NCBI RefSeq assembly: GCF_900115285.1
Contig: NZ_FOYW01000001.1
Location: forward strand, 1,399,616-1,463,615
Length of the DNA: 64,000 bases
Reading direction: 5' to 3'
DNA from: Marinobacter daqiaonensis
GTDB lineage: Bacteria; Pseudomonadota; Gammaproteobacteria; Pseudomonadales; Oleiphilaceae
Shown: positions 5,181-53,317 of the stretch, in pieces
How positions within the stretch are numbered: the stretch's first letter is position 1
How the letters are laid out: each line of letters opens with the position of its first letter
Made by a program: the position numbers and the translations under genes
The notes under the pieces: generated by a model
Databases searched by the model: none
What the model was told of the DNA's origin: nothing
The model's input: the letters and a program-made list of their open reading frames with translations, nothing else

Positions 5181-6884
<1,704 letters not shown>

Positions 6885-35958: not shown

Positions 35959-38094
35959 ATGACGCTCCAGCCCAGCAAATGTGGCCGCTTCCTGACTGCA
36001 ATGACAGTGCTGTGCATGCCCGCTTTTGGCGCGGCGCAGACCCAGCCGGACGCAGCTTTTGATCTTGCCCTCGATTCCGAAGAAGCCATGCCCCAGGTCC
36101 TCACCACCACCAAGCTGCGCCAGCCCAAGTCGCGGGTCCCAGCCACAACAACGGTGCTGACCGGCGAGCTGATTCGCGACCTGGGCATTCGACACCTCTG
36201 GGAAGTGTTCCGACTGGTTCCGGGCATGACTGTGGGCTATGTGCAGAGCAACAAGCCCGTGGTGAGCTATCACGGCACTGTGGCGGATGAGCAGCGGCGG
36301 CTTCAGGTCCAGGTGGACGGCCGCACCGCGTACCGCCCCAACATCGCCGACATGGACTGGCACGCCATGCCGGTAGCCATTGAGGATATCGAACGGATCG
36401 AGATCACCCGGGGCCCGAACTCCGCCGCCTACGGCATCAACGCCTTCCTGGCGACCATCAACATTATTACGTTTTCCCCGGAGGACACTCACGGTTCGCG
36501 GGTGTCTCTGCGCGCCGGAGACCTCGGCTACCGTCAGGCCTATGGCTCCGTGGGCGGGGGAGCGGACCAGCACGACTGGCGACTGTCGGTTCAGCGCCGG
36601 GAGTCCGATGGCTTTGACTACAGGTTTGAGGATGAGGGCGACTCTCAGGACAAGTCAGAGGTCAGAAAGCCATTTGATGACAGCTACCGCTTCAACATCA
36701 TCAATTACAGCTCCACTTACGATCTGACCGATCAGGATGCCCTGGACCTGCGGCTGGGGTATGTCGAAGTCTACGATGAGGAGGATGCCGCCCAGTACGG
36801 CAAGGCCTTCGGTATTGTCGGCGTACCGGCGGAAACCGGAGACGACTTCTACGGCCAGCTCAAGTGGACCCACAGCTTCAGCGACTCCCACCAGGTTCAC
36901 ATCCAGGCGGGCCACCAGACCTTCAACCGGCGCCAGCGATGGCGCAGTCTTGTGGATCCCGAGGACCTGGGACAGCCAGAGGGACTTCCCGAGCTCGGCA
37001 CTGATGTAAACCAGGACATCAAGGAACAACGGCTGGAATTCGAAATCCAGGACACCCTGTCGGTGACCGAGGATCTGCGGATGGTCGCGGGGGTTGGCTA
37101 CCGCGAGGACCGTTTCGAGTCAGACACGTTCTTCAACGGTTCCGGCAGCAATTACCAGACCCTTGTTTTCGGCAACCTGGAATACACTCCCTGGCACCGC
37201 CTGACCCTCAATACCGGCGCCAGCTGGGAGAAGACCACCAGCGTCGACGACAGCTTTTTCTCTCCCCGTGTGGCGGCCAACTTCCAGCTCACTGACTACC
37301 AGACCCTTCGGCTGGTCTACTCGAGAGCGGTGAGGACACCGGACGCCTTCGAGCAGAACGCCGACTGGGGTTACCGTGGCAGCAACGTCACACCGGAAGC
37401 CCTGTACGGTGGACTGGAAGGCCAGCGACTCCTGGAGTTCGTTGCCCCCGGCAATCTCGACGAGGAGCACATCACCTCGCGGGAAATCAGCTATCTGGGG
37501 CAGTTCCGGATGGGCCAGGGAATGCTCTTTACGGAAGTGAAGCTGTTCAGCGACAAGCTTCGCGATGTCATCAGCGGCCGCATTGCGGTGGATCGGGAGA
37601 CCGTGGAGCTGCCCGACGGCAGCACCGTGACCCAGCCCCGCTGGAATCTGGACAACGTCCTGGCCATTGACCAGAAGGGCCTGGAAATCGAGGGCATGGT
37701 GCAATATCCCGACACCACTGTCCGGCTTACCTATGCCTACCTGGACCAGGACACCGAGTACCGGGGACCAGCCAACAAGCCGGCGAACGAGATCCGGCTA
37801 TACAAGCGGCTGCAGGGTCGTCTCAGCGCCGAACATTCCGGCAGCCTTGCCTGGATCCAGCGCTATCCGGGGGATATATCGTCAGCCGCGGCCTGGTACA
37901 CAGCCCATGACCTTGGGGAGTACCCCTATAATCGCGTTGACCTGCGCCTCGCCAAGGCGTTCTACCTGCCCCGCTTTAACTGGGAAGTGGCCGCCCGCCT
38001 GGAACATTACCCCAACGGTGGCCCTATCATGTTCTACGACAACAACTACAACGACGACACTCACTACTTCTTTGATATTTCGGCGAAATTCTAG
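35959..38094 (+). CDS. TonB-dependent outer-membrane receptor
   Basis: A 711-residue receptor with signal peptide (about 1-27), a plug domain (about 50-170: TVLTGELIRDLGIRHLWEVF, RLVPGMTVGY, DIERIEITRGPNSAAYGINA) and a 22-strand-type barrel ending in YFFDISAKF with terminal Phe. It would import a scarce ligand using TonB energy. The plug is of the vitamin B12/colicin-receptor type rather than the long siderophore type, but the ligand cannot be named. The 161-bp upstream gap contains no clear Fur box. Downstream it is followed by a GacA-like box and the CsrB-like RNA. Confidence 0.9.
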   Translation: MTLQPSKCGRFLTAMTVLCMPAFGAAQTQPDAAFDLALDSEEAMPQVLTTTKLRQPKSRVPATTTVLTGELIRDLGIRHLWEVFRLVPGMTVGYVQSNKPVVSYHGTVADEQRRLQVQVDGRTAYRPNIADMDWHAMPVAIEDIERIEITRGPNSAAYGINAFLATINIITFSPEDTHGSRVSLRAGDLGYRQAYGSVGGGADQHDWRLSVQRRESDGFDYRFEDEGDSQDKSEVRKPFDDSYRFNIINYSSTYDLTDQDALDLRLGYVEVYDEEDAAQYGKAFGIVGVPAETGDDFYGQLKWTHSFSDSHQVHIQAGHQTFNRRQRWRSLVDPEDLGQPEGLPELGTDVNQDIKEQRLEFEIQDTLSVTEDLRMVAGVGYREDRFESDTFFNGSGSNYQTLVFGNLEYTPWHRLTLNTGASWEKTTSVDDSFFSPRVAANFQLTDYQTLRLVYSRAVRTPDAFEQNADWGYRGSNVTPEALYGGLEGQRLLEFVAPGNLDEEHITSREISYLGQFRMGQGMLFTEVKLFSDKLRDVISGRIAVDRETVELPDGSTVTQPRWNLDNVLAIDQKGLEIEGMVQYPDTTVRLTYAYLDQDTEYRGPANKPANEIRLYKRLQGRLSAEHSGSLAWIQRYPGDISSAAAWYTAHDLGEYPYNRVDLRLAKAFYLPRFNWEVAARLEHYPNGGPIMFYDNNYNDDTHYFFDISAKF

Positions 38095-38140
38095 CATCCG
38101 GACACGATTCCGGGCCTCCTCCGGCAGAGGCTTACAGGTT

Positions 38141-38158
38141 TGTAAGCCTTATCTCACA
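38141..38158. promoter_or_regulatory. GacA/UvrY-type box upstream of the CsrB-like RNA
   Basis: TGTAAG-CCTTAT-CTCACA matches the GacA upstream activating sequence TGTAAG-N6-CTTACA with one mismatch. It is centred about 64 bp before the predicted start at 38214, with a TAGAAT -10 element at 38202-38207 and no good -35, as expected for an activator-dependent promoter. An extra CTTACA half site at 38131-38136 forms a second inverted pair with the TGTAAG. Confidence 0.75.
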
Positions 38159-38213
38159 GGCCGCAGCAACAATGTCTGATTTCCCCGCATCTCCCGATCC
38201 GTAGAATGGCTCC

Positions 38214-38567
38214 TGTACACGGAAGTCACCAAGGGAATGCAATGGACTGACCAGCGTAGGGAAAGCGTAGTCAAGGAGTGAGGGCTACTGCAGGGAGTGT
38301 GGCAGCGGATTCATCAGGGATTGTGGTAACCGGTGGCCAGGACGCCCAATGGTACAGGGATGCTTCAAGGGAATACTGGCAAGGATGTCGCCCAGGGAAT
38401 GGGCAGTGTCGAAGGAATCGGCATCGGGTCTGGTCGCGGACAAGGGGGCTACAGGGAACAGTAGCCCCAGCCCGTGCACCTGACCACTTCTTTGTTGCCC
38501 ATCGGTTTGATCTGCACGTTCTCTTCCCGTTTAGATGCACATGGTTGGCAGCCTCTTGAGGCGGTTT
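38214..38567 (+). ncRNA. CsrB/RsmZ-like CsrA-sequestering RNA
   Basis: Between a GacA-like box with a -10 element and a T5 tract at 38565-38569 lies about 354 nt with no credible coding frame. It has 16 GGA triplets between 38221 and 38460; twelve are in AAGGA or AGGGA context such as CAGGGA and CAAGGATG, the binding motif of CsrA/RsmA. Several lie in hairpin loops: GCCC-AGGGAAT-GGGC near 38391, and an 8-bp GGGGCTAC/GTAGCCCC stem with an AGGGAACA loop at 38445-38468. The tail after 38468 has no GGA. Length and density fit CsrB (about 360 nt). The function, titrating CsrA away from mRNAs, is known for the family and inferred here. The final hairpin (GCCT-CTTG-AGGC) is short, so the 3' end is approximate. 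Confidence 0.85.
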
Positions 38568-38589
38568 TTGTCGTGGTTCCGTGGTTTCT

Positions 38590-38613
38590 GGCCCAGGGTA
38601 ATCTGCCTGGGCC
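38590..38613. other. GC-rich hairpin before the ComEA-like gene
   Basis: GGCCCAGG and CCTGGGCC form a perfect 8-bp stem with an 8-nt loop. It has no T-run, so it is not a classical terminator; it may back up the weak terminator of the RNA gene or protect the 5' end of the next mRNA. Confidence 0.5.
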
Positions 38614-38662
38614 GCTGGTCAGCCCGCATTAACGTAACCAACAAACCAGCGACAGAGAAACC

Positions 38663-38959
38663 ATGAAAAAGACACGACAGTTTTTTACTTCACTTGCACT
38701 GATTCTGAGCCTGTTTCCGGTCACCGCACAGGTCTGGGCCGAGGAACCCGCGCAGCAGGAAGCCAGCGTAGTCAATATCAACACCGCCACCGCAGCTGAG
38801 CTTGCGGTACTGGACGGCATTGGCGAAAGCAAGGCCCTGGCCATCGTGGCGGACCGTAATGCCAACGGTCCGTTTGAATCCGAGGACGATCTGACTCGGG
38901 TGCGTGGAATTGGCGATGCGACCGTGGAAAGCAACCGCAATCGCATCACCACCCGCTGA
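38663..38959 (+). CDS. ComEA-like helix-hairpin-helix protein
   Basis: The 98-residue exported protein has a signal peptide (cleavage near AQVWAEE, residue 26) and one helix-hairpin-helix domain with VNINTATAAELAVLDGIGES (about 37-56) and DDLTRVRGIGDATVESNRNR. This matches the soluble ComEA-type DNA-binding proteins of the gammaproteobacterial periplasm, which retain incoming DNA during natural transformation; similar short proteins also occur in species not known to transform. A terminator follows 8 bp after the stop, so it is a single-gene unit. Confidence 0.92.
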   Translation: MKKTRQFFTSLALILSLFPVTAQVWAEEPAQQEASVVNINTATAAELAVLDGIGESKALAIVADRNANGPFESEDDLTRVRGIGDATVESNRNRITTR

Positions 38960-38966
38960 CCCTTCC

Positions 38967-38992
38967 GCCCCGCCTGCCGGTGGGGCTTTTTT
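38967..38992 (+). terminator. Rho-independent terminator of the ComEA-like gene
   Basis: GCCCCGCC and GGTGGGGC form an 8-bp stem with loop TGCC, followed by six T. Confidence 0.9.
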
Positions 38993-53146: not shown

Positions 53147-53317
53147 ATGTTCGGATTTCTCAAGAGCGACCCGAAGAAGAAACTGCAGAAAGCCTACGAG
53201 GAAAAGCTCGCCAAGGCCCTGCACGCCCAACGCAACGGCGACCTGCGGACCCACTCGACCCTGATGGAGGAAGCGGAGGCGCTGTACCGGGAGATACAGG
53301 CCCTGGAGAAGAAATGA
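53147..53317 (+). CDS. DUF6435-like small protein
   Basis: A 56-residue, highly charged helical protein, MFGFLKSDPKKKLQKAYEEK at the start and EAEALYREIQALEKK at the end, typical of the small MFxFxKxDPxKKL family I recall as DUF6435. It is easily missed because it is short. Function unknown. It begins 185 bp from the divergent DsbA-like gene; a nested inverted repeat (C1) starts 9 bp after its stop. Confidence 0.8.
   Translation: MFGFLKSDPKKKLQKAYEEKLAKALHAQRNGDLRTHSTLMEEAEALYREIQALEKK

Follow-up and report, generated by a model that had tools for sequence, protein, structure and literature searches.

What does the DNA between a TonB-dependent receptor gene and comEA of Marinobacter daqiaonensis encode? 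The region lies within the stretch of 64,000 nucleotides analyzed here (hereafter the window), and the original prediction described it as the gene of a small RNA that titrates the translational regulator CsrA and ends at its own terminator. Layout, conservation, and the regulatory circuit encoded in the same genome together make it very likely that the locus upstream of comEA specifies a CsrA-titrating RNA, which would be switched by GacA and be RsmY-like. A separate question is whether such an RNA stands alone or is part of the comEA transcript. The features are collected in Table 1.

Table 1. Features of the comEA locus in the window and of the second GGA-rich locus.
Feature	Position	Strand	Remarks
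TonB-dependent receptor gene	35959–38094		Upstream neighbor of the array
GacA/UvrY-type palindrome TGTAAGCCTTATCTCACA	38141–38158	+	Fits TGTAAG-N6-CTCACA; position read from the sequence
Conserved block TGTCTGAT (TGTCYGAT)	38173–38180	+	Between the GacA box and the −10 element
−10 element TAGAAT	38202–38207	+	108 of 119 loci agree at 5 or more of the 6 bases
Predicted CsrA-titrating RNA	38214–38480	+	5′ end from the −10 element; 3′ limit is the end of conserved structure
GGA-loop hairpin of the conserved 3′ module	38406–38424	+	Helix 1; 96.6% of cells paired
Terminal stem (38435–38439/38472–38476) around hairpin 38445–38468 with AGGGA in its loop	38435–38476	+	Helices 2 and 3
Spacer between array and comEA	38481–38662	+	No intrinsic-terminator-like or sigma-70-like site in scans
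comEA, 98-aa helix-hairpin-helix protein	38663–38959	+	Profile matches
Strong intrinsic terminator (GCCCCGCC hairpin and six T)	38967–38992	+	Directly 3′ of comEA
Second GGA-rich locus (L174) with GacA box TGTGAGATATTTCCTACA	G000:C6, ~133883	−	12 motifs per 240 nt and a clear intrinsic terminator

The GGA array

The forward strand carries 16 GGA triplets over 237 nt (positions 38221–38457), as dense an array as had been predicted. The dominance of the AGGGA (8 triplets) and AAGGA (3 triplets) contexts held, whereas their predicted number of 12 had to be corrected to 11; one triplet, at position 38339, is in a CAGGA context. With 12 AG?GGA motifs per 240 nt, the array is the densest run of the window on either strand (7 at the next peak), and a count of A[GC]?GGA motifs gives 13 per 240 nt versus 9 at the next peak; the window mean is 1.45 motifs per 240 nt. 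Three more spots of the window, at positions 53159 and 54784 of the forward strand and 55311 of the reverse strand, have 8 or 9 A[GC]?GGA motifs per 240 nt.

A search for the corresponding region in other Marinobacter genomes yielded 120 comEA-upstream loci; exclusion of L150, which meets a contig end, left 119 loci from 117 genomes, 2 of which gave 2 loci each (one pair, L134 and L135, is nearly identical). All 119 loci have a GGA cluster on the comEA strand, with 6 to 14 A[GC]?GGA motifs per 240 nt, compared with 0 to 6 on the opposite strand. Motifs of the (A)NGGA type are numerous both in the window and genus-wide, and the GGA array with its box is real, beyond chance.

The claim that the region holds no credible protein gene stood for the forward-strand open reading frame of 93 codons (38278–38559), within which the GGA triplets would have arisen by chance. 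The frame is present, and in the related locus L046 it runs for 87 codons without a stop, which goes against the claim; it has no NCBIfam match, is interrupted by early stops in L047 and L048, and the region has covarying RNA hairpins instead. We therefore rejected it as a gene and give a small protein gene almost no probability. The reverse strand has an open reading frame of 89 codons (38271–38540).

A putative GacA box and promoter upstream of the array

The palindrome upstream of the array agrees at 11 of the 12 fixed positions with the GacA site TGTAAG-N6-CTTACA, as published in the available text of PMC4950607, and is thus the predicted GacA box; GacA would bind at this palindrome. At least 10 of the 12 positions of the published consensus are matched in 43 of the 119 loci, versus 16 of 2380 shuffles. 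A weight matrix (consensus TGTAAGAGATATCGCACA) scores above 8 bits in 118 of 119 loci, the very loci on which it was trained. Exact box patterns were found in 19 of 21 Marinobacter genomes and in none of the 21 when the pattern was reversed as a control. The source genome contains two exact sites, that of the window and one at C6:133883. When one mismatch was allowed, the same genome gave 12 matches versus 9 for the reversed control; therefore, just exact matches carry weight.

Downstream of the box, 95 of 119 loci have a block of the form T[CG]TC[CT][CG][AG]T exactly 32 nt from the box start, compared with 0 of 119 after a single shuffle of each spacer. It may be the site of a second regulator. 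The block lies near the place expected of a −35 element. The −10 element was found where it had been predicted, and in 112 of 119 loci the best match to such an element begins 61 nt from the start of the box. Counting from the −10 element, transcription would start at approximately 38214, within a few nucleotides, which places the predicted GacA/UvrY box upstream of the promoter at approximately −73. In 103 of 119 loci the predicted RNA begins GUCA(N)GGA(Y)GA, which would form a short hairpin that presents a CsrA motif in its loop; this 5′ part differs in the group of loci to which the window belongs.

Conserved structure of the predicted array RNA

Folding of the predicted RNA placed 10 of the 16 GGA triplets of the window in hairpin loops, versus a mean of 2.6 in dinucleotide shuffles, none of which (0 of 500) was as high. 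When the GGA motifs were kept fixed, the control mean rose to 6.4 and 95 of 1000 controls were as high, which is not significant. Across the genus, with the motifs likewise kept, 7.1 triplets were observed in loops versus 4.5 expected, and 116 of 119 loci exceeded their expectation. The loop exposure proposed originally is thus a property of the genus, but the window by itself does not establish it against motif-fixed controls. The entire predicted RNA of the window is not more stable than its shuffles (z −0.81 and 0.09).

Conservation of structure is concentrated in a 3′ module (38402–38480 of the window). Its alignment comprises 101 distinct rows after identical duplicates had been removed and L063, L065, and L096 had been left out for length. 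The module consists of two GGA-loop hairpins and an enclosing stem (helices 1 to 3), in which (i) 94.0% of cells pair; (ii) pairing falls to 28–44% when the partners are slid; (iii) 11 of 18 pairs change on both sides, including 4 of the 5 pairs of helix 1; and (iv) 0 of 500 shuffles equal these values, a comparison that is inflated by kinship among the rows and that concerns a structure chosen after the sequences had been viewed. The fold proposed by RNAalifold paired GCCU with GGGU and left the GGA hairpin unclosed; the hairpin structure was counted instead.

From these 101 rows, the window sequence among them, we built a covariance model designated R2. It matches the source genome at E 1e-5, the matched sequence being one of its own rows, and finds 122 of 124 Marinobacter genomes, including all 110 of good quality; most of the genomes found had supplied model sequences. 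The match adjoins comEA in 121 genomes and lies on another contig in one (G096). All 4 genomes that were new to the model (G401–G404) contain the module with 10 to 14 GGA motifs, comEA directly 3′ of it, and a GacA-type box 194–196 nt upstream of it.

Distribution and linkage to comEA

The ComEA protein scores 74 bits against TIGR00426 (cut-off 53.1, passed), 69 bits against Pfam HHH_3, and 66 bits against the comE model TIGR01259, below the cut-off of 152; its closest named relatives are those of Marinobacter segnicrescens and M. bryozoorum. ComEA matches were found in 119 of 120 Marinobacter genomes (none in G046, and a weak match in a long frame in G090) and, across the order, in 177 of 194 genomes. 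A search of 293 genomes of the order with R2, whose filters lose weak matches, gave hits only in Marinobacter (12 genomes) and one sister genus, in which the array also lies upstream of comEA. The 43 comEA loci from outside the family (42 genomes) have at most 5 upstream motifs; one of them, L232, counts 6 in a slightly wider cut. A DNA similarity search of 38 genomes found the window itself alone; the conservation becomes visible when comEA serves as the anchor or the covariance model is used. As a matter of genome layout, the link between array and comEA is firm.

Such a link could mean that the array is a cis-acting leader alone, on which CsrA would control comEA with no titration in trans. 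The position and orientation of the array relative to comEA would suit this reading, as would, weakly, a partly conserved stem just 5′ of the comEA ribosome site (see below), and Rsm proteins of Pseudomonas putida bind a comEA-like RNA, PP_1813, according to the available parts of PMC7937890. However, 6 to 14 motifs per 240 nt together with a GacA box would exceed the needs of one gene and resemble known sponges, a second GGA-rich locus has the same type of box, and genome G096 has a full array apart from comEA; we regard control in cis alone as improbable.

In G096, the full array with its box (L280, contig C43) has no comEA in 2.4 kb, and comEA itself (L065, contig C34) is preceded by a box and an array of six motifs from which the module is absent. 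This arrangement would be explained if the array had been duplicated and one copy had then become shorter. The full array apart from comEA counts against a strict link between the two. M. oulmenensis has two comEA copies (L004 and L008), both of which are accompanied by a separate GGA array and a box-like palindrome; here, the pair of comEA and array was likely duplicated as one unit.

The spacer and the end of the predicted transcript

The predicted hairpin with a T-tract near 38565 was not recovered: no terminator-like site was found in 38080–38700, and a second scan of the locus also gave none. A separate RNA of approximately 350 nt, ended by such a terminator, accordingly found no support. 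Between module and comEA, intrinsic terminators were found in 11 of 101 loci, compared with 8% in shuffles, and none lies in this spacer of the window. Sigma-70-like promoters were found in the spacers of 2 of 101 loci, the shuffle rate, by a scan of low power, because such a scan misses the promoter of the sponge too. The first strong terminator of the locus in the window comes after comEA; it is also present in the three nearest relatives (L046–L048), but outside this group of four, only 4 of 26 loci have a T-tailed terminator after comEA, which counts against a shared transcript. The rarity of terminators and promoters in the spacer, together with the terminator after comEA, suggests one unit composed of box, sponge, comEA, and terminator. 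The transcript from 38214 may extend past 38480. That polymerase meets no stop between sponge and comEA, the sponge being the 5′ leader of, or cut from, a comEA mRNA that ends at 38992, is plausible, at a probability somewhat below even.

The main alternative to read-through is Rho-dependent ending in the spacer, which is C-rich and G-poor (35.5% C and 16.6% G in 101 loci). The array would then be a stand-alone CsrA-titrating small RNA, ended by Rho or by processing just past the terminal stem, comEA would have its own promoter, and the linkage would reflect a conserved neighborhood. The conserved structure ends at the CCGUG stem, and the following 80 nt are C-rich and G-poor, as this explanation would have it; the full array with box in G096 also speaks for it. 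RsmY, RsmZ, and CsrB are separate small RNAs, which we count toward the same side. Yet the spacer terminators and, in the low-power scan, the promoters stay at shuffle level, and the array precedes comEA in 119 of 119 loci and is absent from 43 of 43 comEA loci outside the family. We place a stand-alone RNA just short of an even chance.

A variable stem (for example, TTTACG...CGTAAA or TTTGCG...CGCAAA) was observed just 5′ of the comEA ribosome site in L056, L090, L141, and other loci. In the 44 of 101 loci that entered the test, chosen by a strict ribosome-site pattern, the stem scored a mean of 5.2 versus 4.0 in cross-paired controls, a score inflated by kinship; L081 and L161 were left out of the corresponding alignment (A2). 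A conserved stem at this place is only suggestive.

A predicted Gac/Csr circuit and the second GGA-rich locus

The source genome encodes a single CsrA of 66 aa (117 bits versus a cut-off of 73), beside an aspartate-kinase-like gene, and a GacA-family response regulator (312 bits against the equivalog model, with a curated cut-off of 280). A 988-aa frame is a candidate for the GacS-like kinase, having an sCache_4 domain, which we take to mark GacS/BarA kinases; among 14 control genomes, this domain was matched in Escherichia coli alone. The predicted layout of a CsrA-titrating RNA was thereby borne out by genus-wide conservation with covarying GGA hairpins and by the presence of CsrA, GacA, and a GacS-like kinase in the genome.

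The second exact box of the source genome leads another GGA-rich locus (Table 1), at approximately −187 from its inferred start; this locus matched nothing in Rfam at E up to 1. Fourteen box sites away from comEA were fetched from the genomes, and the 12 with 8 to 13 motifs were taken for a terminator test (the other 2, L240 and L248, have 4 motifs each). All 12 have an intrinsic terminator, versus 20% in shuffles. The second locus is likely a stand-alone sponge. With CsrA, GacA, the GacS-like kinase, and two box-led GGA loci, a complete circuit from GacS through GacA and two sponges to CsrA is predicted for this genome. Two further GGA peaks were noticed: one near gacA (L166), on the opposite strand, is probably coding, and the other (L176) is a short ACGGAAACC repeat between genes.

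Comparison with known CsrA-titrating RNAs

The proposed check against the Rfam CsrB, RsmY, and RsmZ models gave no match in the window. A search of positions 37800–38900 with E up to 5 returned only a chance match to a human lncRNA (E 0.67), and neither gathering nor permissive thresholds yielded any Csr/Rsm family, RsmV included, in the window. The likeness therefore lies in the layout and not in an Rfam family. Elsewhere in the window, Rfam 5_ureB_sRNA matched positions 6452–6738 of the forward strand at 100 bits, antisense to an open reading frame (5181–6884) that is presumably urease-alpha-like; this match may reflect just conserved coding sequence.

As with RsmY and RsmZ of Pseudomonas, a GacA palindrome, GGA triplets in hairpin loops, and two small RNA loci with GacA boxes are found here. 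The positions of the two boxes (approximately −73 and −187) resemble those of the GacA sites of P. aeruginosa at −75 (rsmY) and −196 (rsmZ), as given in the accessible text of PMC4950607. Unlike RsmY and RsmZ, the Marinobacter locus has 16 GGA triplets, is tied to comEA, lacks an array terminator in the window, and has no Rfam match. An intrinsic terminator of its own is usual in RsmY, RsmZ, and CsrB and is not a defining feature of such RNAs.

Many A(N)GGA motifs are also found in CsrB and CsrC of enterobacteria, Aln1 of Alteromonas, and Pf1 of Pseudoalteromonas, as far as described in the available parts of PMC5864184 and PMC9927453; Pf1 is reported to have a GacA-like box and 21 GGA (PMC9927453). 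The window has no Rfam match to CsrB or CsrC and is set beside Aln1 and Pf1 by their descriptions, as it is beside the Csr small RNAs reported in Alteromonas (PMC5864184), Pseudoalteromonas (PMC9927453), and Alcanivorax (PMC9788540). RsmV of P. aeruginosa (RF04320) weakly matches one of 14 loci, L162 of an outlying Marinobacter genome (27.7 bits versus a gathering threshold of 100), and has no match in the window; in 145 genomes of the order it matched nothing, the controls being silent too. RsmV is reported to be GacA-independent in the accessible portion of PMC7366521, and RsmW likewise is reported to be Gac-independent.

According to the available text of PMC7694677, RsmU of Xanthomonas is an RsmA-binding RNA cut from the 3′ UTR of comEA; it has a terminator and forms of 77 and 117 nt, and its authors saw it in no other genus. 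Compared by description, the two loci share the derivation, here putative, of an RsmA/CsrA-binding RNA from a comEA transcript; unlike RsmU, the Marinobacter array sits upstream of comEA under a GacA box. The retrieved parts of PMC7694677 and PMC7937890 describe no sponge that is led by a GacA box and located upstream of comEA. Titles and abstracts, with subscription journals mostly outside the search, gave no report of a Csr small RNA in Marinobacter, and the genus is absent from the main text of a machine-learning survey of RsmA-regulating small RNAs (PMC5568370).

Implications for Marinobacter

Phosphorylated GacA would likely switch on transcription from approximately 38214, and the resulting RNA, through its GGA array, would bind and titrate CsrA as RsmY and CsrB do, so that CsrA-repressed mRNAs would be released. 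If the sponge is part of the comEA mRNA, Gac activation would increase ComEA and the freed CsrA targets alike. Tentatively, and with more doubt than confidence, we propose that almost all Marinobacter species have, as their main Gac-activated sponge, the comEA 5′ leader, that is to say, one RNA that frees CsrA targets and encodes the DNA-uptake receptor. Competence would then be tied to the Gac switch, and comEA transcripts, with RsmU and the P. putida RNA, would have become sponge carriers repeatedly and independently.

Marinobacter gains a predicted complete Gac/Csr circuit whose two RNA loci have no Rfam Csr/Rsm match, and the comEA-side locus is found by R2 in every Marinobacter genome of good quality. 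Should the sponge form the leader of comEA, a single transcript would serve both a global switch and a competence gene. If this is true, the coupling of Csr signaling to DNA uptake is directly testable, and it would parallel the comEA-derived sponge of Xanthomonas.
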